Origin: Spinacia oleracea
Taxonomy: Eukaryota; Streptophyta; Magnoliopsida; Caryophyllales; Amaranthaceae
DNA length: 64,000 nucleotides
Direction of reading: 5' to 3'
Assembly: GCF_020520425.1 (NCBI RefSeq)
Contig: NC_079487.1
Coordinates: forward strand, 80,853,141 to 80,917,140
Positions 10,150 through 28,218 of this stretch are shown piece after piece. The position numbers and the translations under genes were made by a program. Numbering within the stretch: position 1 is the first letter of the stretch; every line of letters begins with the position of its first letter. Under the pieces are notes generated by a model. That model ran no database searches. It saw nothing but the letters and a program-made list of their open reading frames with translations, and was not told the DNA's origin.

Positions 10150-13086
10150 TGTAACACCCCGACAATTCTCTCTTTTCTAAAACAACATTTTAATATAAAA
10201 CGTAGAGAATTATCAAGGCATTATCGCCCGTGTGAAAACGTAACGGCCTATTCAGAATTTTGCAGCGGAAAACATAAAACTAACTTTAGGTTTATAAATA
10301 ATCGATTACATAGTTAATCCCAAAACCAATCAACGAAAATAAGATCAACTAACAAGTTTAAAGTCCAATTAAACAAACCCAAGTTAACTTAGCAAATCAA
10401 AACTAAATACAAGCTCTCTATTCCCGATCCCAATGATGCAACATCTTCAAACCTGCAGATGGACAATGCTTATTGATCCTTAGAGACTGCTCACCAAAGA
10501 TTGGGTCATCACAGGATCAATAAGGCATAACCATGATCAACATGCACAAGCAAAAGCACGTAATCAGCAAAGCTGAGTACTACATACTAAATCAATAATA
10601 ATCCTAACATGATTCTATTAAACGAACAATCCTAACATGGTACTAAATAAAACATAAGCAAGGATAATCAAGATATATTGACTTGAAGACTATACTTGAC
10701 TGAACTAGACCTTTGTATCATTAACATTATTTTAATTGAAATAGTCAATGGACTGAGTTGTCTACTAGAAACTTCTTCTTCTTCACTAAGGAAGACGAGG
10801 TACGGGCGCGACTCCGTAAACCCCAATGACCTGCGATATCGAGGGACTTTTAAATAAAAATAGAACCGGTGATCAATCCGGCCCCAGAAAAAGCCATAGG
10901 CTACCCATGACCCCAACTCCTGATTGTCCGTCACTTTAGACGTGCACAGTCTAAAGCTATTGCTACTCATTTTCACTTTACATGACTTAACTTTTAATAC
11001 TTGGTTATGACTCATCAAACATAAATATTATATTCAACAAGTAAACACAACTTCTTTTATCTTTGAATTAAACCAGTGATCACAACGTTCAACCAAGAGC
11101 CAATTCCAACTATTTTAATCCTTTCTTTATCCATATTTAAAAACCTTTATTAGGTATAAGGTTCAACTACCAAACAAGGTCCTCGGCCCTTATAAGGTAG
11201 TGAAAATCTAAAGAGGAACAACGATCAATAAAGATCTAAACCAATATTAAATAATATAAAGTTCCACAAAACCAACATGCTTGCATCAATATTCCATGCT
11301 AACATGATTCAATTCTTATAAATAAAGTCCTATGCTCAACGCATTAATTCAACGACATTGAACATGAAATTCCAACATAAACAAGTTCATAAATATATTC
11401 ATCATATTCTCAATACAACACACATCCAAGCACACAGGTATGTACGTACCTTGTGTAAACAAACTGATAGGCCACTTTAACGAATTCAAAAGTCACCCAC
11501 AAAGAATTCTCCGCCTAAAATAATCAAGAAACGTACCCAAATCAATTCCTAATCATTGGCTACCATAACAAAGCATTCTAAATGAATCCTAAACATATTT
11601 AGAACATTCCCCAATATCAAAACTTAAACCTTTGATTTCCTAGCATCATAACTATTGAATTAGTGATTGAACTTCGTTGAAAACTCTTTGCAAACATCGT
11701 ACTTTAAATTTTCAGCAATATAACTAATTTCAAACTACTCCAAAACATAATTAACATTCTTAAAATCATACAAATAATAGCTTTAATAATGTATAATCAT
11801 TCTATTATGATTTTAGAACATTAAAACCTTAAAAATCCATACTTTAATAATTAAATTCCTTATTTCAATTCAACTATGTAATCTGAAAATTAAATTATCA
11901 ATTAAGCATAATGTATAATCTGAAAATCTAACTTAATCATAAAAACTTATAATTTATATTCACGAAACATGAATTAAATTAATAAAACTTCATTAAAACC
12001 CTAACTTAAACATAGTTAATAAGTCTGAAAATAATTAAATTAATTTCAACAACATATAATCTGAAATTTCATAACTTAATCATAAAAATCATAAATTTAA
12101 TTCAAGAAACATAAATTCAAATTAATTAAATTAATTAAAACATTTAAATAACTTAGGATTCAAGAAATAACCAAAAGGAGAAAGAGAGAGGGACTGTCGG
12201 CGGCTGGTGCAGGCACGACGACGACGGAGGCGCGGCTGGTGGCGACGTGACTGGGCGGCGTGACTGGTGTTGGTGGTTGCGGGTGGTTGCAAGCAACGAA
12301 AGAGGAAGGAGAGAATTGGTGTGTTCAGTGCAGCAGCGGCGCTGCAGGTGGCGGCGCAGCGTGGAGGGAACGACGAAGGTGGTTGTGCGACTGGTGGTGG
12401 GTACGGTGGCGGGCTGCGGTGGTTGCTATGGTTGCTGCGAGAAACCGAAACAAGTAAGGCAAGAAAACGAAGGGGAAGGAGAACGAACGAGTGAGAGAAT
12501 GAGATGTTACCGTGCGGCGACGGAGAGGGACTACGGCGGAGGAACAGGCGGCGGTCAGGCAGGGTGGTGGCGGCTGGGCAACAAGCAAGCAATGGAGGTT
12601 GAGGGTTGAGTTTTCCTTTTTACGTGAAAGAGAGGAAGGAAGGGGTTTTGGGTGAGGTTGGTTTCACGTGAATTAGAAAAGAGGGGTATGGGTTTTTTTT
12701 TGTTTTTTTTTTTATTTTGGGCTTTTCCCATGTGGGCTAGGATTAAGATTTGGATTTTAGTGTTTGAGTCAAAACCGAATAGAATTGTTTTTTTCGAATT
12801 CAACGAGTTTTCCTAATTCAAATTATTTTCAACATAAAATTCTAAAATAATTCTTGATTGCGCAAACCGTTAAAATATTTGGAATATATTTAAAAGAATT
12901 TAAATATACATTAAATATATAAATATAATAAAGTTCAAAAATCGTTAAATATTTAGAACATACTTAAAATAAAATGAATATACGTTAATTATATATTCAT
13001 TACTTAAAATTCATAAATTCTATTTAAATATAAATAATATACGTTAAAATATATTAATAAAAATTATAAATTTACGGGGGATTACA
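10150..13086 (-). repeat. Gypsy LTR 1 (3' LTR of body 1)
   Basis: It begins TGTAACACCCC and ends ACGGGGGATTACA, a TG...CA pair, 2937 bp. It contains a GC-rich block (about 12180-12600) made of GGCGGC, GGTTGC and ACGACG motifs. Open frames in the block (153 aa) and at 10668-11018 (116 aa, minus) recur in LTR 2 because the LTR itself recurs; they have no recognisable domain and I do not call them genes. Confidence 0.9.
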
Positions 13087-13100
13087 ATCTACCCCTCTTA
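13087..13100 (-). other. Polypurine tract of body 1
   Basis: The minus strand reads TAAGAGGGGTAGAT directly before the LTR start TGTAATCCCCC. The same tract is at 19692-19705 for body 2. Between here and gag (13101-13530) I see no coding sequence, so pol is deleted rather than mutated. Confidence 0.75.
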
Positions 13101-13530
13101 AAAGAAGTTTCGTCCCGAAACTTGACACGAAATTTCCAACATTTTCCCCAAAAGCTTTTAACTTATTCTTACTAGAGAAGTATTTGTGCCACCTAGGTGC
13201 ACTATTTTGCCAACTCAAAGCTGTTTGTGTTACTCATGAACACCTTTTCTTTTGCGGAGAATCTATTTGCTTTGCATCAACTTCTAAAGGTTGCTAAAAA
13301 ATAAGCATAAAATTCATAAAAATACCATAAAATAAGTAAAAAGCGCGAATTTCTATCGCATTCTACCCCCCTTAAAGAAAACGAGTTACGCCCTCGTAAC
13401 TCACCTTAGGGAATAGCTAACCAAAATTCTCTTTCGACGAATTCTATTCTCAAAATTCCTATTTCACTAAAACTACTAACTTTAAACTTTTCACAACAGA
13501 TGACGAAACAAAAGAACAAGTCACCACGAA

Positions 13531-14665
13531 TTAAATAATGCTTAACTTGCGCGGAGTTAATAGAAAAGTACCAGAATCTATATCGGCAGATCGTTCATCC
13601 TCATTCCGATTCATCATGTACAACTTTCCTGGAGCCTTATTCGGGTTGTTGTTATCATTTGCAGGCTTATTATAGTTCCCTTGATTGTTTTGTGCCCCTC
13701 CAGGCTTTGAATTTTGACCTCCAGACTGGTTAAACTTCACTTGGTTTTCACCTCCATTACTATTTTGTTCCTTTCTGTGCTTAGTGAAACACTCGTATTC
13801 CCTATGCCCACTTTTCTGACAATAGTTGCAGGTCACTAATTCTCCTTTGCAGTTCTTACCAGGGTGATTGTTACTGCACATCTTGCAATGATGCACTCTC
13901 TCAGATGGGTTCGAGTTGTTGTGGTGCCCCTGATTGTTTCCTCCTTGGAAATTTCCATTCCCATTTCTGTTTCTATTCCTTTTAAAGTTTTCTTGGTTAC
14001 CCCCAGCATTAAAATCTTTCCTCTTTTCCCCAATTACCACAGTTTTCTTGTCCCTTCTAGACTGCAGACCATAAATATGAGCAGCTCTCCCATATACTAT
14101 GTCTAAGGATGTAAAAGTTTCTCCACCTAATCCCAATTGAATTTCATCAGTCAGCCCTTGCTCAAACCTTTGAGCCTTTAGCTCCTCAGTAGCTACCACT
14201 TTAGGTGCAAACCTCGATAAAGCTATAAACTTGCTATAGTATTCAGCAATAGTCATATTCCCCATCCTAAGGTTGATGAACTCCTGCGCTTTCTGCTTTC
14301 TCATAAAAGGAGGATAAAATTTCCCCCCTCAAGGCAACAATAAACGAATCCCAATTGAATCCCTCAGCAGCACTTAGTCTAGTTCCATTTTCCTTCCACC
14401 AAAGGTCGGCCTCATCTTTCAGGTAAAGGACAGCTTGACTTACTCTCATATTCCCAGGGCAACCCACAGCCTCAAATAGTTTCTCAAATTCCCTAATCCA
14501 GTTTTCCAGGAAGGTTGGATCTGCTTGCCCCTTGAAATACGGTGGCTTAACCTTAGAAAGTCTTTCAAACATTTCCTCTGCAGAATCAGGGCGTTCAGTT
14601 CTCTCCTGGGTTAGCTTTTCCGCCAAGAGGCGAATCGCAGCAGCTAGATCATTGTTGTTGACCAT
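13531..14665 (-). pseudogene. Gypsy gag, body 1, frameshifted
   Basis: The same gag as at 20136-21269, split in two frames (14665-14267 and 14304-13531). The cause is visible: a run of six C on the plus strand (14330s) where body 2 has five. The N-terminal part has the Retrotrans_gag features (FLENWIREFEKLF, LKDEADLWW) and the C-terminal part has two zinc knuckles. The break falls in the middle of the capsid-like domain, so this copy would give no full Gag. It sits downstream of the 214-aa ORF and upstream of the PPT. Confidence 0.85.
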
Positions 14666-15340
14666 TCTAGAACGCGACCTGCAATTAGTATATTCTACTT
14701 TAGGTTTGAAACATCACTTATACGTTATCCCATACAATTTAATACTTGAATTGACCATAAAGATCGCCTCAACCAACAATGTTCACATTAATACACATCA
14801 TTTACGAGGGCACGACAATCGTTTACGAAGGTGCAACGATCGTCTACAAGATGCAATAATCATTGAAAAATAATTATCCTCAATAATTCACGAAAGACAT
14901 TTACACACTGCACATAAGGCATAACATTTTGAATCATATTGGTCATGAGGGTCTAGATTGGCCCTCACTTCCTTTATGTACTCAAATCATTTAATATTTT
15001 TGTGGCAATTGAATTGATCCACAATTCACACTGAGTATGCAACCAATAGGAAGATTAATCCACGACGTACTACCTAGAGGTTGGGGTATTATGGAATCCT
15101 CAAAATAGAATAAAGAACAATTCCTTGAAAACTTTAACTTTTATTGCTAACTCCATAGAGGTTTATTACATCCTTGAAAATAATAAAGAATATTTCAAAC
15201 TTCAATAAACTTAAACCTTAAACAGTTGTAGCTTTGCTACTTATTCTTTAAAACATAAAAGAGCTAACTAACTATTTATGACTTCAAAATCTTTGTGGCC
15301 TCTTGCCTATCCATTGCTCCTGAAACTTGCGAAGTGAAAT

Positions 15341-15985
15341 TTAGATCTCAAGATCATCGAACTCTTCTTCAGGGTCTTCATCGGGGTCTTCCTCAGGGTT
15401 TGCATCTTCACCCATGTCTTCATCTTGATTAGGCTCACTTGCCATCTCCTGTTCACTTTCGAGCTCTGCATCCGAATCACTAGATATCTCAATGGTTGGC
15501 TCATGAGCCGCTGGGTTAGGATTCTCTACCTCAACACCTACATTCTCATTCTCCACAGCTACATCATTTTCCTCTAGGTCATTATTTACACTAATTCCCA
15601 TAGGTTCTTCTGTAACTGAATCCCCAACATGACTCCCTACGATTTTACCGTCTCTAAACCCACTTTCTGCCGCTTCAATAATGGTGGTCAGAATTTCTGA
15701 ATCATATTTCCATCTACCATCCCAAGTTCCATACTTAGCCAAGTTTGGAGTTCCATTATCAGAATGCATGTCTTTAAACTTTTCCTTGAGTTCTAGGTAT
15801 GGAAATTTGTCAGGTAAGCAATTAATGATAGTGGCTGCTATGATATCCTTTCTCATTAAGATAGGTTGCCCTTGAACTTTAGCATAATATTCACATCCAA
15901 ACACAATTTTCTTCACGTAAATATCAGGGGTTTCTATATCAAGTTTCTCGAAGGATCCTATGTTGGTATACTTGGAAAGAAACAT
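15341..15985 (-). CDS. Extra 214-aa ORF upstream of gag, body 1
   Basis: The open frame starts MFLSKYTNIGSFEKLDIE and lies in the sense direction between the PBS (16737-16750) and gag. Residues 1-115 look globular with mixed charge and several aromatics (for example YGTWDGRWKYDSE). Residues 130-214 are very acidic and low in complexity, with EISSDSDAELESEQE and repeated DEDPEEE-like stretches. I recognise no known domain. The frame is intact in both bodies, with three amino-acid differences by eye (V/G, A/T, D/N). An ORF before gag is known in Ogre/Tat Gypsy elements, but the tRNA-Met-type PBS here does not fit that group. Function unknown. Confidence 0.6.
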   Translation of the reverse strand: MFLSKYTNIGSFEKLDIETPDIYVKKIVFGCEYYAKVQGQPILMRKDIIAATIINCLPDKFPYLELKEKFKDMHSDNGTPNLAKYGTWDGRWKYDSEILTTIIEAAESGFRDGKIVGSHVGDSVTEEPMGISVNNDLEENDVAVENENVGVEVENPNPAAHEPTIEISSDSDAELESEQEMASEPNQDEDMGEDANPEEDPDEDPEEEFDDLEI

Positions 15986-16736
15986 TTTATTCCTAAAATA
16001 AACAATTCAAGGTCTCACTAACGATTTTCCAGCCAAAACATAAACAAGGTTCAATAATCAATAAGTTTGGTGGAATCAAACAATTCTTTATGCACATGTA
16101 AATGTAACACTTAAACAATTAGCACATGCACATACATAACAATCAATATCTTATCATTGACTAGCTACTAATGCACATATAATTCTATCTTATATGCCCT
16201 TCTTATATTACCCATCTCTCATAAACTAAAGCAATAGAATAATTTAAATAGCAAAGTAAAAGGACGATAATATAAGAAAATTATAACATAGAATAATAAC
16301 ATAAATAAAAATATAAAATAAATAAAATGAAATAAGTTAAGAAAATGCGTAGCGAATAAATTCGAGAATAAAGTTATTAATTCGAAAATATTTATATTTC
16401 CTAATTAACGAATTCTAACTCTTGAAACAACTTTAAAAAAAATTGAACTCTTTTTTAAAAAAATGTATTCATATTATTTTTATTTATTTGTTTGAATAAT
16501 AAATAATAAGAAAAATAAAAATGTCGAAAGTATCACTTTAACTTGGAAAAATAATTTGATTTCGAACGTAAATAAGGAATATCGTATACTTTCAAACAAG
16601 GTAAAAGGAAATCGGCCCCCCCAAAAAAAAGTACCAATTTTTGAACACTATAATACGTAGAATCTCGATTTTTAAGAAATTTATTTTAAATAACTAGATA
16701 GTTAGGCGCCTAAAAATTTATTAAAGTAAAACCTTA

Positions 16737-16750
16737 GCTTCTAGATACCA
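16737..16750 (-). other. Primer-binding site of body 1
   Basis: The minus strand reads TGGTATCTAGAAGC three bases after the LTR end (…TGTTACA). The first seven bases match the tRNA-Met PBS core TGGTATC; the rest differs from the usual AGAGC. Confidence 0.7.
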
Positions 16751-16753
16751 CTT

Positions 16754-19691
16754 TGTAACACCCCGACAATTCTCTCTTTTCTAAAACAACATTTTAATAT
16801 AAAACGTAGAGAATTATCAAGGCATTATCGCCCGTGTGAAAACGTAACGGCTTATTCAGAATTTTGCAGCGGAAAACATAAAACTAACTTTAGGTTTATA
16901 AATAATCGATTACATAGTTAATCCCAAAACCAATCAACGAAAATAAGATCAACTAACAAGTTTAAAGTCCAATTAAACAAACCCAAGTTAACTTAGCAAA
17001 TCAAAACTAAATACAAGCTCTCTATTCCCGATCCCAATGATGCAACATCTTCAAACCTGCAGATGGACAATGCTTATTGATCCTTAGAGACTGCTCACCA
17101 AAGATTGGGTCATCACAGGATCAATAAGGCATAACCATGATCAACATGCACAAGCAAAAGCACGTAATCAGCAAAGCTGAGTACTACATACTAAATCAAT
17201 AATAATCCTAACATGATTCTATTAAACGAACAATCCTAACATGGTACTAAATAAAACATAAGCAAGGATAATCAAGATATATTGACTTGAAGACTATACT
17301 TGACTGAACTAGACCTTTGTATCATTAACATTATTTTAATTGAAATAGTCAATGGACTGAGTTGTCTACTAGAAACTTCTTCTTCTTCACTAAGGAAGAC
17401 GAGGTACGGGCGCGACTCCGTAAACCCCAATGACCTGCGATATCGAGGGACTTTTAAATAAAAATAGAACCGGTGATCAATCCGGCCCCAGAAAAAGCCA
17501 TAGGCTACCCATGACCCCAACTCCTGATTGTCCGTCACTTTAGACGTGCACAGTCTAAAGCTATTGCTACTCATTTTCACTTTACATGACTTAACTTTTA
17601 ATACTTGGTTATGACTCATCAAACATAAATATTATATTCAACAAGTAAACACAACTTCTTTTATCTTTGAATTAAACCAGTGATCACAACGTTCAACCAA
17701 GAGCCAATTCCAACTATTTTAATCCTTTCTTTATCCATATTTAAAAACCTTTATTAGGTATAAGGTTCAACTACCAAACAAGGTCCTCGGCCCTTATAAG
17801 GTAGTGAAAATCTAAAGAGGAACAACGATCAATAAAGATCTAAACCAATATTAAATAATATAAAGTTCCACAAAACCAACATGCTTGCATCAATATTCCA
17901 TGCTAACATGATTCAATTCTTATAAATAAAGTCCTATGCTCAACGCATTAATTCAACGACATTGAACATGAAATTCCAACATAAACAAGTTCATAAATAT
18001 ATTCATCATATTCTCAATACAACACACATCCAAGCACACAGGTATGTACGTACCTTGTGTAAACAAACTGATAGGCCACTTTAACGAATTCAAAAGTCAC
18101 CCACAAAGAATTCTCCGCCTAAAATAATCAAGAAACGTACCCAAATCAATTCCTAATCATTGGCTACCATAACAAAGCATTCTAAATGAATCCTAAACAT
18201 ATTTAGAACATTCCCCAATATCAAAACTTAAACCTTTGATTTCCTAGCATCATAACTATTGAATTAGTGATTGAACTTCGTTGAAAACTCTTTGCAAACA
18301 TCGTACTTTAAATTTTCAGCAATATAACTAATTTCAAACTACTCCAAAACATAATTAACATTCTTAAAATCATACAAATAATAGCTTTAATAATGTATAA
18401 TCATTCTATTATGATTTTAGAACATTAAAACCTTAAAAATCCATACTTTAATAATTAAATTCCTTATTTCAATTCAACTATGTAATCTGAAAATTAAATT
18501 ATCAATTAAGCATAATGTATAATCTGAAAATCTAACTTAATCATAAAAACTTATAATTTATATTCACGAAACATGAATTAAATTAATAAAACTTCATTAA
18601 AACCCTAACTTAAACATAGTTAATAAGTCTGAAAATAATTCAATTAATTTCAACAACATATAATCTGAAATTTCATAACTTAATCATAAAAATCATAAAT
18701 TTAATTCAAGAAACATAAATTCAAATTAATTAAATTAATTAAAACATTTAAATAACTTAGGATTCAAGAAATAACCAAAAGGAGAAAGAGAGAGGGACTG
18801 TCGGCGGCTGTTGCAGGCACGACGATGACGGAGGCGCGGCTGGTGGCGACGTGACTGGGCGGCGCGACTGGTGTTGGTGGTTGCGGGTGGTTGCAAGCAA
18901 CGAAAGAGGAAGGAGAGAATTGGTGTGTGCAGTGCAGCAGCGGCGCTGCAGGTGGCGGCGCAGCGTGGAGGGAACGACGAAGGTGGTTGTGCGACTGGTG
19001 GTGGGTATGGTGGCGGGCTGCGGTGGTTGCTATGGTTGCTGCGAGAAACCGAAACAAGTAAGGCAAGAAAACGAAGGGGAAGGAGAACGAACAAGTGAGA
19101 GAATGAGATGTTAACGTGCGGCGACGGAGAGGGACTACGGCGGAGGAACAGGCGGCGGTCAGGCAGGGTGGTGGCGGCTGGGCAACAAGCAAGCAATGGA
19201 GGTTGAGGGTTGAGTTTTCCTTTTTACGTGAAAGAGAGGAAGGAAGGGGTTTTGGGTGAGGTTGGTTTCACGTGAATTAGAAAAGAGGGGTATGGGTTTT
19301 TTTTTGTTTTTTTTTTATTTTGGGCTTTTCCCATGTGGGCTAGGATTAAGATTTGGATTTTAGTGTTTGAGTCAAAACCGAATAGAATTGTTTTTTTCGA
19401 ATTCAACGAGTTTTCCTAATTCAAATTCTTTTCAACATAAAATTCTAAAATAATTCTTGATTGCGCAAACCGTTAAAATATTTTTTTATTATATTTAAAA
19501 GAATTTAAATATACATTAAATATATAAATATAATAAAGTTCAAAAATCGTTAAATATTTAGAACATACTTAAAATAAAATGAATATACGTTAATTATATA
19601 TTCATTACTTAAAATTCATAAATTCTATTTAAATATAAATAATATACGTTAAAATATATTAATAAAAATTATAAATTTACGGGGGATTACA
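16754..19691 (-). repeat. Gypsy LTR 2, shared by both bodies
   Basis: 2938 bp with the same TG...CA ends as LTR 1. By eye it differs from LTR 1 at roughly a dozen or so positions, including a TTTTTTATT change near 19480 and several changes in the GC-rich block. It serves as 5' LTR of body 1 and 3' LTR of body 2. Confidence 0.9.
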
Positions 19692-20135
19692 ATCTACCCC
19701 TCTTAAAAGAAGTTTCGTCCCGAAACTTGACACGAAATTTCCAACATTTTCCCCAAAAGCTTTTAACTTATTCTTACTAGAGAAGTATTTGTGCCACCTA
19801 GGTGCACTATTTTGCCAACTCAAAGCTGTTTGTGTTACTCATGAACACCTTTTCTTTTGCGGAGAATCTATTTGCTTTGCATCAACTTGTAAAGGTTGCT
19901 AAAAAATAAGCATAAAATTCATAAAAATACCATAAAATAAGTAAAAAGCGCGAATTTCTATCGCATTCTACCCCCCTTAAAGAAAACGAGTTACGCCCTC
20001 GTAACTCACCTTAGGGAATAGCTAACCAAAATTCTCTTTCGACGAATTCTATTCTCAAAATTCCTATTTCACTAAAACTACTAACTTTAGACTTTTCACA
20101 ACAGATGACGAAACAAAAGAACAAGTCACCACGAA

Positions 20136-21269
20136 TTAAATAATGCTTAACTTGCGCAGAGTTAATAGAAAAGTACCAGAATCTATATCGGCAGATCGTT
20201 CATCCTCATTCCGATTCATCATGTACAACTTTCCTGGAGCCTTATTCGGGTTGTTGTTATCATTTACAGGCTTATTATAGTTCCCTTGATTGTTTTGTGC
20301 CCCTCCAGGCTTTGAATTTTGACCTCCAGACTGGTTAAACTTCACTTGGTTTTCACCTCCATTACTATTTTGTTCCTTTCTGTGCTTAGTGAAACACTCG
20401 TATTCCCTATGCCCCCTTTTCTGACAATAGTTGCAGGTCACTAATTCTCCTTTGCAGTTCTTACCAGGGTGATTGTTACTGCACATCTTGCAATGATGCA
20501 CTCTCTCAGATGGGTTCGAGTTGTTGTGGTGCCCCTGATTGTTTCCTCCTTGGAAATTTCCATTCCCATTTCTGTTTCTATTCCTTTTAAAGTTTTCTTG
20601 GTTACCCCCAGCATTAAAATCTTTCCTCTTTTCCCCAATTACCACAGTTTTCTTGTCCCTTCTAGACTGCAGACCATAAATATGAGCAGCTCTCCCATAT
20701 ACTATGTCTAAGGATGTAAAAGTTTCTCCACCTAATCCCAATTGAATTTCATCAGTCAGCCCTTGCTCAAACCTTTGAGCCTTTAGCTCCTCAGTAGCTA
20801 CCACTTCAGGTGCAAACCTCGATAAAGCTATAAACTTGCTATAGTATTCAGCAATAGTCATATTCCCCATCCTAAGGTTGATGAACTCCTGCGCTTTCTG
20901 CTTTCTCATAAAAGGAGGATAAAATTTCCCCCTCAAGGCAACAATAAACGAATCCCAATTGAATCCCTCAGCAGCACTTAGTCTAGTTCCATTTTCCTTC
21001 CACCAAAGGTCGGCCTCATCTTTCAGGTAAAGGACAGCTTGACTTACTCTCATATTCCCAGGGCAACCCACAGCCTCAAATAGTTTCTCAAATTCCCTAA
21101 TCCAGTTTTCCAGGAAGGTTGGATCTGCTTGACCCTTGAAATACGGTGGCTTAACCTTAGAAAGTCTTTCAAACATTTCCCCTGCAAAATCAGGGCGTTC
21201 AGTTCTCTCCTGGGTTAGCTTTTCCGCCAAGAGGCGAATCGCAGCAGCTAGATCATTGTTGTTGACCAT
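20136..21269 (-). CDS. gag: Gypsy Gag, intact, body 2
   Basis: 377-aa open frame starting MVNNNDLAAAIRLLAEK. Residues about 40-190 form a Retrotrans_gag region (PPYFKGQADPTFLENWIREF, YLKDEADLWWKENG, YYSKFIALSRFAP, RFEQGLTDEIQ). A basic, Asn/Gly-rich stretch follows, then two zinc knuckles, CKMCSNNHPGKNC and CNYCQKRGHREYEC (the second a perfect CX2CX4HX4C). The frame ends just after SADIDSGTFLL, which looks like the first residues leading into the protease of an autonomous relative. The product would form virus-like particles and package the element RNA. Pol functions are missing. This is the intact counterpart of the broken gag at 13531-14665. Confidence 0.85.
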   Translation of the reverse strand: MVNNNDLAAAIRLLAEKLTQERTERPDFAGEMFERLSKVKPPYFKGQADPTFLENWIREFEKLFEAVGCPGNMRVSQAVLYLKDEADLWWKENGTRLSAAEGFNWDSFIVALRGKFYPPFMRKQKAQEFINLRMGNMTIAEYYSKFIALSRFAPEVVATEELKAQRFEQGLTDEIQLGLGGETFTSLDIVYGRAAHIYGLQSRRDKKTVVIGEKRKDFNAGGNQENFKRNRNRNGNGNFQGGNNQGHHNNSNPSERVHHCKMCSNNHPGKNCKGELVTCNYCQKRGHREYECFTKHRKEQNSNGGENQVKFNQSGGQNSKPGGAQNNQGNYNKPVNDNNNPNKAPGKLYMMNRNEDERSADIDSGTFLLTLRKLSII

Positions 21270-21944
21270 TCTAGAACGCGACCTGCAATTAGTATATTCT
21301 ACTTTAGGTTTGAAACATCACTTATACGTTATCCCATACAATTTAATACTTGAATTGACCATAAAGATCGCCTCAACCAACAATGTTCACATTAATACAC
21401 ATCATTTACGAAGGCACGACAATCGTTTACGAAGGTGCAACGATCGTCTACAAGATGCAATAATCATTGAAAAATAATTATCCTCAATAATTCACGAAAG
21501 ACATTTACACACTGCACATAAGGCATAACATTTTGAATCATATTGGTCATGAGGGTCTAGATTGGCCCTCACTTCCTTTATGTACTCAAATCATTTAATA
21601 TTTTTGTGGCAATTGAATTGATCCACAATTCACACTGAGTATGCAACCAATAGGAAGATTAATCCACGACGTACTACCTAGAGGTTGGGGTATTATGGAA
21701 TCCTCAAAATAGAATAAAGAACAATTCCTTGAAAACTTTAACTTTTATTGCTAACTCCATAGAGGTTTATTACATCCTTGAAAATAATAAAGAATATTTC
21801 AAACTTCAATAAACTTAAACCTTAAACAGTTGTAGCTTTGCTACTTATTCTTTAAAACATAAAAGAGCTAACTAACTATTTATGACTTCAAAATCTTTGT
21901 GGCCTCTTGCCTATCCATTGCTCCTGAAACTTGCGAAGTGAAAT

Positions 21945-22589
21945 TTAGATCTCAAGATCATCGAACTCTTCTTCAGGGTCTTCATCGGGGTCTTCCTCAG
22001 GGTTTGCATCTTCACCCATGTCTTCATCTTGATTAGGCTCACTTGCCATCTCCTGTTCACTTTCGAGCTCTGCATCCGAATCACTAGAGATCTCAATGGT
22101 TGGCTCATGAGCCGCTGGGTTAGGATTCTCTACCTCAACACCTACATTCTCATTCTCCACAGCTACATCATTTTCCTCTAGGTCATTATTTACACTAATT
22201 CCCATAGGTTCTTCTGTAACTGAATCCCCAACATGACTCCCTACGATTTTACCGTCTCTAAACCCACTTTCTGCCGCTTCAATAATGGTGGTCAGAATTT
22301 CTGAATCATATTTCCATCTACCATCCCAAGTTCCATACTTAGCCAAGTTTGGAGTTCCATTATCAGAATGCATGTCTTTAAACTTTTCCTTGAGTTCTAG
22401 GTATGGAAATTTGTTAGGTAAGCAATTAATGATAGTGGTTGCTATGATATCCTTTCTCATTAAGATAGGTTGCCCTTGAACTTTAGCATAATATTCACAT
22501 CCAAACCCAATTTTCTTCACGTAAATATCAGGGGTTTCTATATCAAGTTTCTCGAAGGATCCTATGTTGGTATACTTGGAAAGAAACAT
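21945..22589 (-). CDS. Extra 214-aa ORF upstream of gag, body 2
   Basis: Second copy of the ORF at 15341-15985, in the same place between PBS and gag, with the same length and the same acidic C-terminal half. It has GCEYYAKVQGQPILMRKD in the N-terminal half and EEDPDEDPEEEFDDLEI at the end. I find no transmembrane segment, zinc finger or nuclease motif. The position suggests it is the first ORF on the genomic transcript. Possible explanations are an element-specific accessory protein or a captured host fragment. No function can be given from sequence alone. Confidence 0.6.
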   Translation of the reverse strand: MFLSKYTNIGSFEKLDIETPDIYVKKIGFGCEYYAKVQGQPILMRKDIIATTIINCLPNKFPYLELKEKFKDMHSDNGTPNLAKYGTWDGRWKYDSEILTTIIEAAESGFRDGKIVGSHVGDSVTEEPMGISVNNDLEENDVAVENENVGVEVENPNPAAHEPTIEISSDSDAELESEQEMASEPNQDEDMGEDANPEEDPDEDPEEEFDDLEI

Positions 22590-23339
22590 TTTATTCCTGA
22601 AATAAACAATTCAAGGTCTCACTAACGATTTTCCAGCCAAAACATAAACAAGGTTCAATAATCAATAAGTTTGGTGGAATCAAACAATTCTTTATGCACA
22701 TGTAAATGTAACACTTAAACAATTAGCACATGCACATACATAACAATCAATTTCTTATCATTGACTAGCTACTAATGCACATATAATTCTATCTTATATG
22801 CCATTCTTATATTACCCATCTCTCATAAACTAAAGCAATAGAATAATTTAAATAGCAAAGTAAAAGGACGATAATATAAGAAAATTATAACATAGAATAA
22901 TAACATAAATAAAAATATAAAATAAATAAAATGAAATAAGTTAAGAAAATGCGTAGCGAATAAATTCGAGAATAAAGTTATTAATTCGAAAATATTTATA
23001 TTTCCTAATTAACGAATTCTAACTCTTGAAACAACTTTAAAAAAAATTGAACTCTTTTTTAAAAAAATGTATTCATATTATTTTTATTTATTTGTTTGAA
23101 TAATAAATAATAAGAAAAATAAAAATGTCGAAAGTATCACTTTAACTTGGAAAAATAATTTGATTTCGAACGTAAATAAGGAATATCGTATACTTTCAAA
23201 CAAGGTAAAAGGAAATCGGCCCCCCAAAAAAAAGTACCAATTTTTGAACACTATAATACGTAGAATCTCGATTTTTAAGAAATTTATTTTAAATAACTAG
23301 ATAGTTAGGCGCCTAAAAATTTATTAAAGTAAAACCTTA

Positions 23340-23353
23340 GCTTCTAGATACCA
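23340..23353 (-). other. Primer-binding site of body 2
   Basis: Same TGGTATCTAGAAGC as body 1, three bases from the start of LTR 3. Confidence 0.7.
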
Positions 23354-24009
23354 CTTTGTAACACCCCGACAATTCTCTCTTTTCTAAAACAACATTTTAA
23401 TATAAAACGTAGAGAATTATCAAGGCATTATCGCCCGTGTGAAAACGTAACGGCTTATTCAGAATTTTGCAGCGGAAAACATAAAACTAACTTTAGGTTT
23501 ATAAATAATCGATTACATAGTTAATCCCAAAACCAATCAACGAAAATAAGATCAACTAACAAGTTTAAAGTCCAATTAAACAAACCCAAGTTAACTTAGC
23601 AAATCAAAACTAAATACAAGCTCTCTATTCCCGATCCCAATGATGCAACATCTTCAAACATGCAGATGGACAATGCTTATTGATCCTTAGAGACTGCTCA
23701 CCAAAGATTGGGTCATCACAGGATCAATAAGGCATAACCATGATCAACATGCACAAGCAAAAGCACGTAATCAGCAAAGCTGAGTACTACATACTAAATC
23801 AATAATAATCCTAACACGATTCTATTAAACGAACAATCCTAACATGGTACTAAATAAAACATAAGCAAGGATAATCAAGATATATTGACTTGAAGACTAT
23901 ACTTGACTGAACTAGACCTTTGTATCATTAACATTATTTTAATTGAAATAGTCAATGGACTGAGTTGTCTACTAGAAACTTCTTCTCACTACTACATAAA
24001 CGAGCTAAT

Positions 24010-24360
24010 GCAACCCTGAAAAACCGTTGCAATAGGCCTAAAAACCGTTGCTATATGCCTACTGCAACGGTTCATAGACCGTTGCTGTTGCTGCCGTTGC
24101 GGTCTAGTAGGCCTAATACAACGACCCTTTCCTATATAGAAGAACCGTTGCATTTGATCTAACGCCACAGTTTTCTAGACCTAATGCAACCCCTTTCCGT
24201 ACAGAAGAACCGTTGCATTATGTCCAATGCTACAGGTCTTTTGCACCTAATGCAACGACATTTGATTCAAAGGGACCCTTGCATTATGTCTAATGCAACA
24301 GTCTTTTGGACCTATTACAACAACCTTTACACTCTCTATCAGAACCGTTGTAATAGGACA
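24010..24360. repeat. CACTA left subterminal repeats
   Basis: Multiple direct and inverted copies of AACCGTTGCA and CCTAATGCAAC, presumably transposase-binding sites. Matching copies at 27715-27910 mark the right subterminal region. Confidence 0.8.
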
Positions 24361-24666
24361 GATCCCCAGCAAATTTAAATCGTACACCCTGCTTATTTGA
24401 TGTTAATAACAACTAAGCAATTAAAAATAAAACAACTAAATGATGATAAAATTTAATTTTTATTAAAAAGATCCATAGATATTTACATTGTTCTCCAATA
24501 GTTTGGAAATTTACAAAATGGTATTTAGAGTGCTTATAAAGCCATACTTGTATCAAACCCCAAAGGTTACATATCACAATTTACATTAGTCAAGATAAAA
24601 AGTAGTAATTATTCCTTGTCTAGCATATTTAAATCTTGAAGGGGACCTGTAGATATAAATATTTTC

Positions 24667-25135
24667 TTACTTCACCACAGGGATCCATCCCGTAAAGTTG
24701 AGACCTTCTACGTGTTTTTGAGACACTAGAGCCTGCATCTGTTCCAACATACAAAGAAATTAAGCTAAGAAAAACATAACATTAACTCATGAAGTACGAG
24801 AGCATTTATATGCCTTAAGAATATAGAGTTGACAATTTATCAACTTAAATGAGAGAGATTAAAGAGAATAGAAAAACTTTATCATAGGCAGTAGGAATGA
24901 AGCCAGATAAAATAGCTTCCATGAAAGAATAAAACATAACACATTCTCAAATATGAAAAAGGAGTGTATGTATCATACTGAGAGTTAAAATAAGAAAAAT
25001 CAAGATAATATAGTAACTTTGGTTAAATGATTCCAAGGGCAAGAACCATTAACCATACCTCGGATTTCGGCTCCCAGGCCTTCACTTGCATTCCATGAAC
25101 CACAAATGGAGAGAAGACTCCACTGGCGACAACTG
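24667..25135 (-). pseudogene. Two gene-like exons inside the CACTA element
   Basis: Minus strand. An upstream exon ends at 25059 with ...VVHGMQVKAWEPKSE before GTATGG. The next begins at 24738 after an AG and reads MQALVSQKHVEGLNFTGWI and then PVVK before a TAA stop at 24667-24669. Both junctions are in phase 0 and the codon content looks coding. I do not recognise the protein. Further candidate exons lie upstream at 25564-25620 and 27080-27420. The set could be the element's own accessory gene or a captured host gene; I cannot tell which. Confidence 0.4.
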
Positions 25136-26311
25136 CTACATCAATAGCATAAAGAAAACCACACACAAGCCAGATAAGTCAATTAACTTATATATTGCAG
25201 CAAGAGCTTCCTATAGCTTAAAAAAGAAGCTAAAGGCTGCACCATACCACTACTTGCAAGTTTGTCGTCTGATCCTAAAAACTTCTCTATGTTGTCTTTG
25301 ATACTAGAGGAACTGGACCAAGTGACATGACATTGCTACGAACTGTACCAAAATAAATAAGAGGGACACTGGCAGCAGGTTGGACATAGTATTATCTAAT
25401 TTAGAGTAGACGAAGGAACACTACCTTAGCTTCCAGTAGCAAGATAAAAAATGAATGAACATTGGTTGCATATTATTTCACAAGAACTTGAAATAGAATG
25501 GTGTAAAATAAGAAAGACAGTAACATAAGAGAGGAATCAAGTAATAAAAGACAATATCTACACATCGTTGTTCTTGCGGTACCAAGATATTAACCACCTC
25601 GATGCAGTAGGAATAAAATATTCTCCAAAGACTAATAAATACGGTGCATTAGATTATCCATGAACTTCTCCTCTCTGTTAAAATGAATAAACAAATAAAT
25701 AAAAGAGAACATACAAGCGAGTCTTTTTCTGAGAATTTTTCAACTCTAATAATGAACAATATTTAGCCATATTCATTTCTACGAACACACATCTTAGCCA
25801 ACACCTTGAAAATATGTGGTCCAACAATTAACCACCTTGGAACAACCTACAAGATCCAACAAATGGCATCTGAGTCTAAAATTACGATTTACAAACACAG
25901 GTACATGAGCATTCCTAAACATCTACCCAACCGTTATACCACAACTCTCTCAAAGATACATTGACTAGTTTCTGTGGCACAACCAACTAGTGTTGATATT
26001 CAGAAATTCTGAAGGCACTGTTACTTAATACGTGATATGAGAATGGATACAGTGATTCATTTAGCCATTAGTTTTGCAAAGTTAGTCATAATATGTGCCA
26101 CTCCCACATACAAATTAACATTTTCCGGATCACATAATCACATGTTATTGGCGGTTAGCAAATAAGGAAACACTATTATGAAATTAAGTATATTACACTA
26201 GAGAATACTAGCTTATAACATGAACAATAAGTCTTAGAGCCTTAACTCCTTAAGCATTTATTTTTACATGCTAATACAATTTTGACAGCAAAATTAAAGA
26301 CAATCTAATTA
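25136..26311. other. CACTA interior, no clear gene
   Basis: AT-rich sequence with short open frames only. A stretch at 25564-25620 reads PTASRWLISWYRKNND on the minus strand and may be another exon of the gene-like fragments. Confidence 0.35.
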
Positions 26312-26573
26312 GTTCCTCCGTTTCGAAATAATAGGGACATTTTTACTTTTGACCCTATTCATAAATTTTAATTTGACTATCATTTGTGATTTATGGGCAA
26401 GGAAAAATATAGTCGTGAGTATATTCATTTAATTCATCTCGATATGTACTTTCGGAATATCAACTTCTTATAATTTTTAAGAATACAAAATTAGAGATAT
26501 TAATGTTCAAATATTTACCTTTACAAGCGTGAAAAGATAAACTATCCCCATTATTATTTCGAAACGGAGGGAG
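26312..26573. mobile_element. Stowaway-like MITE
   Basis: The ends GTTCCTCCGTTTCGAAATAA and (reverse complement) CTCCCTCCGTTTCGAAATAA are inverted repeats, flanked by TA at 26310-26311 and 26574-26575. It is 262 bp with no coding sequence. Nested in the CACTA element. Confidence 0.85.
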
Positions 26574-27074
26574 TATTTCTTGCAATCAACTCAAATAAAT
26601 CGGATTCTTTGATACCGGCTTAGCAAAGTCCAAAAAAACTAGTCATATGTGAAACAAAATCTAAGTCACTGAGAAGAACAGAATTAACTTCTTTATTAAA
26701 TTTTGCTACATTATTTTTGACATTAAGAAAAGGAGGAGAAATATTTTTGATTTTCTTACAGTGGTATTTGTGGTTCTTCTCATCTAATTTGATTAAATCC
26801 TTATAAAGAGCAAACAAGCTAGTACAAATTTCAATAACCAATTAAGTTGAACATAATTCAGCCATTCCACTTACTAAAACATTAATTATCATGCCAACTA
26901 GAAACCCAATTATAGATAATCTGAATCTTGAAGCTATTTCACAACAGGATTGCTGGAAATGAATTAAAGCTCTGTTCTTCTAGGTTAAAATTGGTACCCA
27001 CAATAACATTCAATACAAAAAAACACAGAAAATTATTGGAAGCAAAAGAAACGAGAAACCTAGTAAAGTGCAAG

Positions 27075-27430
27075 AGAGAAACCTCGAAGGAGTGGGAGTG
27101 AAGTTCGACCGAACAAGGAGAGCAGACATCGGCGGTGAAACCCAACGCATCGGAATAGAATTTAGCAGCTCCGGGAGATTGAGAACATCCTTCAAATGTT
27201 AAGAGAATTAATGTTCTCAGATTATTAAGAAATAAAAAATTAGTACTCAATTATAAAATGCTGAAAAATAACCTAAAAATTGAGAATTCTTAACCCTAAA
27301 AATCGAAGAAAAGAGTACCTGAGAAAGGGGCCAGCGTAAGAGATCAGCGGCGCCGCAACCATTAGAGGTGGAGACGATTTCGTCTAAAGTTAACAGAATT
27401 AGCTTCCATAGAATTTGCGAGAGGTCGAGT
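27075..27430 (-). other. Candidate 5' exons within the CACTA element
   Basis: On the minus strand an open stretch reads ...DEIVSTSNGCGAADLLRWPL before a GTACTC donor near 27320. It is followed after an AAG acceptor at about 27189 by a second open stretch (DVLNLPELLNSIPMRW...) ending at a GTTTCT donor near 27080. The frames agree in phase 0. No family is recognised. The position near the right end suggests the 5' end of a minus-strand transcript that includes the exons at 24667-25135. Confidence 0.3.
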
Positions 27431-28218
27431 TAAAATTCAAAGAGAGAAAGTCGGATTTAAGAGGTTTTGGAGAGCTATCTGAACTGGGAGAGCATAGGAT
27501 TCTAAGCTTTTATAATCTATGAATGACTATGAGAAAATAGGAGAATGAATTTGTTGAATAAAATTACAGATTTGTGTTCTTCAATTACATTGAAAACGAA
27601 AGTGGGTTTTCATATTTACTTGAAGGGGGTTCTGGAAGTTTTGGGAAATGAGGAGTGTTGAGCGCCCATTTCTTTGATTTTTTTTTTATATTAACGCAAA
27701 GCTATGATAAGGACACGTTGTAATAGCTTCACAATATGCAACGGCTCAAGTTCTAATACAACGGCTCGTTCAAAACACCGTTGCCTTAGCTTGGACCGTT
27801 GCAAAATACAGTTGCATTAACCAAGACCGTTGTACAAAACCGTTGCATTAGCCAAGGCCGTTGCAAATATGCGTCGCATTAGTCCTAGACCGTTGCATTT
27901 TCCGGTTGCATTTGCTCATTTATGTTGTAGTGTCTTCTTCACTAAGGAAGACGAGGTACGGACGCGACTCCGTAAACCCCAATGACCTGCGATATCGAGG
28001 GACTTTTAAATAAAAATAGAACCGGTGATCAATCCGGCCCCAGAAAAAGCCATAGGCTACCCATGACCCCAACTCCTGATTGTCCGTCACTTTAGACGTG
28101 CACAGTCTAAAGCTATTGCTACTCATTTTCACTTTACATGACTTAACTTTTAATACTTGGTTATGACTCATCAAACATAAATATTATATTCAACAAGTAA
28201 ACACAACTTCTTAATATA

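Follow-up and report, generated by a model that had tools for sequence, protein, structure and literature searches.

Why should a retroelement without pol carry an additional open reading frame (ORF) between its primer-binding site (PBS) and gag, and is this frame kept because it works? The question is raised by a tandem array in the window, which is the whole 64,000-nt stretch of Spinacia oleracea DNA analysed here. The preliminary description had reported a 214-aa ORF at this place that is intact in both bodies of the array while gag is broken in one, and had proposed it as the best candidate for an undescribed component.

A tandem array of pol-less elements

The array occupies positions 10150-28212 on the minus strand and is arranged as LTR-body-LTR-body-LTR, with bodies of ~3.67 kb and LTRs of ~2.94 kb (ends by eye). 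Each body consists of PBS, a 5' leader of ~770 nt, the 214-aa ORF (ORF0), a spacer of ~675 nt, gag and the polypurine tract (PPT), in this order. The features are:

10150-13086, minus strand: LTR 1, TGTAAT...GTTACA on the minus strand, ends set by eye
13087-13099, minus strand: polypurine tract of body 1, AAGAGGGGTAGAT
13531-14667, minus strand: gag of body 1, with a 1-nt difference at 14328 that breaks the frame
15341-15985, minus strand: ORF0 of body 1, 214 aa; residues 1-120 at 15626-15985, acidic tail (residues 121-214) at 15344-15625
15993-15995, minus strand: 3' splice-site-like AG (TAG), seven nt before the ORF0 ATG of body 1
16737-16750, minus strand: PBS-like TGGTATCTAGAAGC, followed by donor-like AAG/GTTTTA
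16754-19691, minus strand: LTR 2, common to both bodies, 99.46% identical to LTR 1 over 2953 nt
20136-21269, minus strand: gag of body 2, whole, 377 aa (Pfam Retrotrans_gag 9.6e-14, Ty3_capsid 2.6e-7)
21945-22589, minus strand: ORF0 of body 2, 214 aa
23357-23986, minus strand: first part of LTR 3, with another LTR piece at 27933-28212

The 214-aa frame, its intactness in both bodies and the broken gag of body 1 are all as first described. Over 3.74 kb, 17 mismatches and 2 one-base indels distinguish the two bodies, and their ORF0s differ in four codons, with replacements at residues 28, 51 and 59 and a silent change at 167. The PBS at 16737-16750 is of a type which we take to be tRNA-iMet. Pol is absent from both bodies, and the distance from the gag stop to the PPT is only ~430 nt, too short for pol; gag of body 2 (20136-21269) looks to end just inside the start of an apparent protease region. 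LTR 3 is broken up by ~3.9 kb of other sequence (23986-27933), and no LTR parts were found in the window beyond 28212.

Tandem elements with common LTRs are called frequent in plants in PMC11899658. Among 27 close-set places picked by eye from 150 scored ORF0 places of the genome, 14 neighbouring ORF0 pairs had spacings of 6.6-7.35 kb; for 11 pairs the spacing was 6.60-6.73 kb, which is the unit size of the array in the window. This recurring spacing suggests that the pol-less structure is common to other copies.

The ORF0 protein has a highly acidic tail

When the PBS-gag stretch was shuffled 1000 times by a first-order Markov model, the longest ATG ORF had 132 codons and none of the 1000 shuffles reached 214. 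The acidic tail that had been noted at first sight is borne out by the residue counts: residues 1-120 contain 17 D/E and 16 K/R, and residues 121-214 contain 37 D/E and zero K/R. The whole protein is acidic, with a pI of ~4 (the lowest value that the program returns). In all 32 gap-free intact copies the tail has a net charge of -34 to -38 and EEFD near its end.

No domain had been recognised in the protein, and Pfam, PHROG and PDB searches likewise gave nothing convincing: window ORF0 and its relatives had no Pfam match and no convincing PDB match, and window ORF0 had no PHROG match and no relative among the viral contigs searched. The PDB match 6nyr (E 2.3e-7) was rejected as a repeat artefact, its score having accumulated from numerous weak alignments to a repeat protein. 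A profile search and a structure prediction of the first half had also been proposed; the profile search links window ORF0 to ORF0s of other elements (see below), whereas the AlphaFold2 model of residues 1-125 was uninformative, with a pLDDT of 38. The first half probably forms a small fold, and the tail is a charged tether, of which the composition is kept and the sequence is otherwise free to vary.

Homologous ORF0s lie upstream of gag-pol in the same genome

The window gag was compared with 30 of the 150 protease loci listed. A match was found in 29 of the 30, with identities of 27-43% (two 24-residue scraps excepted). L052 gave the best-scoring gag (31% over 370 aa), and the highest identities over more than 100 aa were those of L054 (43%) and L055 (42%), over 151 aa. 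No lineage was clearly nearest to the window gag among these 30 loci, and no autonomous partner for the window family was found among them.

The L055 element (C6:85227503) has a 1570-aa open frame, a chromodomain (PF00385, 4.4e-7) and a PBS; a 147-aa ORF lies between this PBS and gag. When this 147-aa ORF0 was used for a genome search, all 56 candidates were scored and 54 were matches, namely near copies and others, 22-42% identical, in which the open frame measures 91-183 aa. For ten of these 54 places, chosen by eye, a protease place follows downstream on the same strand at a computed distance of 1.7-2.1 kb. Window ORF0 was absent from these matches. The connection was made by profile: that of ten other-element ORF0s matched window residues 1-125 with 20.8 bits, compared with 6.4 for the best of 2000 shuffles, and hhalign of the ORF0 profile against window ORF0 gave a probability of 95.4 and an E of 1.8e-8 over 79 columns at 22% identity.

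Related ORF0s vary in their C-terminal part. The L112-type ORF0 (172-183 aa), upstream of a 1551-aa frame at C3:33011739, ends in EEDPEEEDPEEEFDE, a style near the EEDPDEDPEEEFDDLEI of window ORF0, and the L120 ORF0 (127 aa) is without an acidic tail. In the L056 lineage only ~370 nt separate PBS and gag (worked out by hand), and there is no room for an ORF0 of 214-aa size. The L103 ORF0 (L103 661-1101 minus, C6:85229760-85230200), whose element has an integrase with a chromodomain, starts MVRTRVTARKQTARRG. This start presumably resembles the histone H3 tail around K9, and by this likeness it is a possible histone mimic.

Ogre/Tat elements have a Tat-type pol and a tRNA-Arg type PBS. By PBS type and by the pol of a relative, an identity of the frame as Ogre/Tat ORF1 was not supported: the window PBS is TGGTATC-type (TGGTATC follows the LTR in 27/30 loci) and a chromodomain is present in one related ORF0-bearing element, the window element itself being without pol.

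ORF0 is a known class in Tekay chromoviruses

An extra ORF before gag had been called unusual outside Ogre/Tat elements, and this one a candidate for an undescribed component. Neither statement is supported, because the class, named ORF0 or 5' additional ORF (aORF), is known in Tekay chromoviruses. ORF0 lies upstream of gag in rice Retrosat2, RIRE3, RIRE8 and FRetro3, which are Tekay/Del chromoviruses (PMC3485330), and Retrosat-2 is placed under Tekay/Del in PMC6317226. Window ORF0 is likened to the rice and sunflower ORF0s by position and description, its sequence homology being with ORF0s of the same genome only. The rice elements resemble the window in the sense ORF before gag, in LTRs of ~3 kb with similar termini, and in an ORF0 that evolves faster than gag-pol with Ka below Ks, but they contain gag-pol and are >12 kb long (PMC3485330). 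As presented in PMC3485330, ORF0 is confined to grasses.

In sunflower, the Tekay group 2 elements have a sense 5' aORF in a dicot, largely disordered and without domain match, as in the window, and it is kept in 500/523 elements (PMC11728184). Unlike window ORF0, it is 402 aa long and proline-rich with a predicted NLS, and its elements have gag-pol (PMC11728184). Within the comparison given in PMC11728184, no amino-acid similarity between sunflower and grass ORF0s is reported; the same paper refers to a 2011 survey for the Arabidopsis Tekay 5' aORFs. The review of additional ORFs in PMC7264820 concerns mainly ORFs close to the 3' LTR. Among rice LARDs, Spip and Squiq, cited in PMC1940013 as non-autonomous partners of RIRE3 and RIRE8, are like the window family non-autonomous derivatives of ORF0-bearing elements. 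The LTRs of Spip and Squiq match those of their partners (PMC1940013), whereas no matching autonomous partner of the window family was present among the loci compared.

While the ORF0 class itself is already known from rice and sunflower Tekay, several points were unreported in the literature searched and are perhaps new: a homology that can be detected among the ORF0 families of a single dicot, the constraint on ORF0 within a pol-less family, its survival next to a dead gag-pol, and the start of the frame at a splice-site-like sequence. The grass Tekay ORF0s have been known for years without an assigned function. Here two diverged ORF0 families of one genome are joined to a third, whose carriers lack pol and have first-look candidate places in the thousands, and together they yield a domain profile, a selection test and a simple expression hypothesis.

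The first half of ORF0 is constrained

The genome searched comprises 894,210,420 bases in 242 contigs, six of them of 115-189 Mb. With the ORF0 protein as query, 150 of 3441 first-look candidates (a number that is not a copy number) were scored; all 150 had E <= 1.3e-135 over 213-214 residues, and five of them contained an internal stop. The 30 best ORF0 loci, being biased by protein similarity, were kept out of the main selection test. For that test, copies were picked by the non-coding spacer (40 scored of 882 candidates), and ORF0 was intact in 36 of the 40. Intactness by itself proves little about function, the family being young.

Variants were scored against the commonest base, without a tree, and divided into those private to one copy and those shared between copies. 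Leaving out L098 (67 mismatches, poor alignment) gave 39 copies, and leaving out also L097 (51 differences, 24 of them in one tail deletion) gave 38. For the whole ORF0 in 38 copies, private variants were neutral (N68:S26 versus 2.73:1 expected), and shared variants were N24:S19 (P 0.0105). The shortage of replacements lay in residues 1-120, where shared variants were N6:S12 versus 2.66:1 expected (P 0.0006, omega ~0.2). Private variants of residues 1-120 were N30:S18 (omega 0.63, P 0.08), which is not plainly neutral and makes the contrast in this half weaker than the shared count by itself would imply. No constraint was observed on shared variants of the tail (N18:S7, P 0.50).

When private and shared variants of the whole ORF0 were compared by Fisher's test, P was 0.009 for 39 copies, 0.077 for 38 copies, 0.045 for one copy per array and 0.027 for the 32 intact copies. 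For residues 1-120, P was 0.052 (38 copies), 0.048 (one per array) and 0.044 (32 intact). The contrast between shared and private variants in ORF0 is modest. In part this supports the initial reading: on shared variants, ORF0 behaves as a component under selection, its first half being constrained and its tail acidic. A dN/dS near one together with frequent stops, which had been named as evidence against function, was not what the shared variants of residues 1-120 gave; for the tail, dN/dS is near one.

Similar results were obtained for two other frames. The eight copies of the L112-type ORF0 had N16:S18 versus 2.81:1 expected (P 0.0008) and are constrained. For gag of 21 loci, shared variants were N39:S51 versus 2.54:1 expected, and private variants were N141:S48 plus 8 stops. 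The gag of the pol-less family, like ORF0, is under purifying selection, so the broken gag in body 1 is an accident of a single copy. ORF0 appears to be kept in working order. Taken together, the window ORF is very probably a diverged ORF0 / 5' aORF of a non-autonomous Tekay/Del-related family (a clade assignment made without a tree), functional under selection; this degree of confidence applies to membership and to function under selection, and not to the biochemical role.

ORF0 is found with different gags

In four of the 30 best loci (L002, L013, L014 and L015), leader identity to the window is only 72-74%, but that of the spacer is 97-99% and that of gag ~95%. The reverse was found in L006-L012 (7 of the 30 loci), which combine window-type ORF0 and leader (94-96%) with a different gag. 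In this sister subfamily the first 261 nt of the spacer are 91-92% identical and the remainder 54-57%, and gag is 75-77% identical over ~450 nt. No fixed ORF0 difference was found between the seven sister loci and 15 window-type loci, and therefore the sister subfamily probably got ORF0 and leader by recent recombination.

L006, L008 and L010 (read as L063, L061 and L062) are each followed by a frame-broken remnant of gag and protease-RT, and an integrase remnant was recognised by eye. Identity among the three remnants is 91.5-95.8%. Within the first 420 nt of gag, all three have the same frame-breaking deletion, and two of them have an insertion in common. The common deletion indicates that the sister subfamily multiplied after its gag broke, with ORF0 open in the copies seen. 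This intactness may be partly due to recency, and the sister loci were found via similarity of the ORF0 protein, a criterion that is biased towards intact frames. The L063 remnant retains an RT stretch of 138 open codons. In L025, around 2594-2599, ORF0 is retained and gag is largely absent.

If it is true that ORF0 is kept where gag-pol is dead, selection would be acting on a benefit not available in trans from other elements, and the role of ORF0 would then be directly testable.

ORF0 may be expressed from a spliced transcript

There are 13 upstream ATGs in the leader before ORF0, and 18 in the spacer before gag. In L112, L103 and L120, the ORF0 ATG follows directly after an AG, and 15-17 of the 20 preceding bases are pyrimidines; because L112 and L120 are related, the three do not count as independent cases. 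Of 4273 background ATGs, 6 have the same AG and pyrimidine context. The AG of the window type is 7 nt upstream of the ORF0 ATG (TATTTCAG/GAATAAA-ATG) and is kept in all 30 loci, as CAG in 29 including body 2, and as TAG in body 1 alone. Where a PBS was found (27 loci), a donor-like AAG/GTTT comes after it in 25.

The AG at the ORF0 start and the donor-like site after the PBS make leader splicing likely. On these sequence motifs we lean, by a little, towards expression of ORF0 from a spliced transcript with its donor just after the PBS and its acceptor at the ORF0 start. Such splicing would remove the leader with its 13 upstream ATGs.

Possible roles of the ORF0 protein

The reading that we favour, and hold tentatively, is that the ORF0 protein would be an accessory factor aiding the element's own RNA or ribonucleoprotein. 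Its small folded domain would be joined to a disordered acidic tail ending in EEFD, which would dock a basic partner, and reverse transcriptase and integrase would be supplied by other elements. C. elegans Cer1 offers a comparison of working, without any claim of homology, host and element being unrelated: an extra protein from spliced LTR-element RNA is needed there to export the unspliced RNA (PMC12786077). Suppression of silencing and chromatin targeting are live rivals of the accessory factor. The packaging helper and the partner-recruiting factor suggested in the preliminary description are still candidate roles.

ORF0 could suppress host silencing, as plant viral suppressors and the Vandal VANC proteins do. 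We regard this as possible but rather doubtful. The fast divergence of ORF0 between families is consistent with an arms race, and modulation of RNA silencing has been proposed from a weak resemblance in fold between a DRBM protein and the ORF0s of maize and sorghum (PMC11728184). However, the window protein is acidic overall (pI ~4), which does not suggest RNA binding, and, as a matter of argument only, a freely diffusing suppressor gives each non-autonomous copy little reason for keeping its own ORF.

An equally doubtful possibility is a chromatin or integration adaptor, in which the EEFD tail would bind histones or a basic nuclear protein and steer the pre-integration complex. The strong negative charge and the EEFD kept in all 32 gap-free intact copies agree with this, as do the ends of other ORF0s (EEEFDE, EDEFDE, EEEFEE and SSDFD), and the insertion distribution of sunflower Tekay elements differs with and without the 5' aORF (PMC11728184). 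The H3-like stretch at the L103 ORF0 start would also fit, but it is missing from the window type. Moreover, tail variants are unconstrained beyond composition, and the L120 ORF0 is without such a tail.

Returning to the accessory factor, a stricter form of it seems unlikely to us, in which ORF0 would be a minimal selfish module. Its product, made from spliced RNA, would act preferentially on the RNA of the copy that encodes it (Rev- or escort-like), and the frame would be kept open by selection despite dead gag and pol and be moved between backbones by recombination.

That ORF0 is a mere passenger, open only through the youth of the family and the recombinational spread of its 5' region, is improbable. 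The array is young (LTRs 99.46% identical), subfamilies with gags ~25% apart show zero fixed ORF0 differences, private variants of the whole ORF are neutral, and Fisher's P was 0.077 in one of four copy sets. The shared variants of residues 1-120 are nevertheless short of replacements (P 0.0006), as are the eight L112-type copies (N16:S18, P 0.0008), and the homology to other ORF0 families shows long maintenance.

Capture of a host gene fragment by the window subfamily, an origin raised in the preliminary description with which the lack of a Pfam domain match agrees, is largely refuted and very improbable, since diverged homologues lie at the same place in long gag-pol elements of the same genome (distant matches inspected in part).
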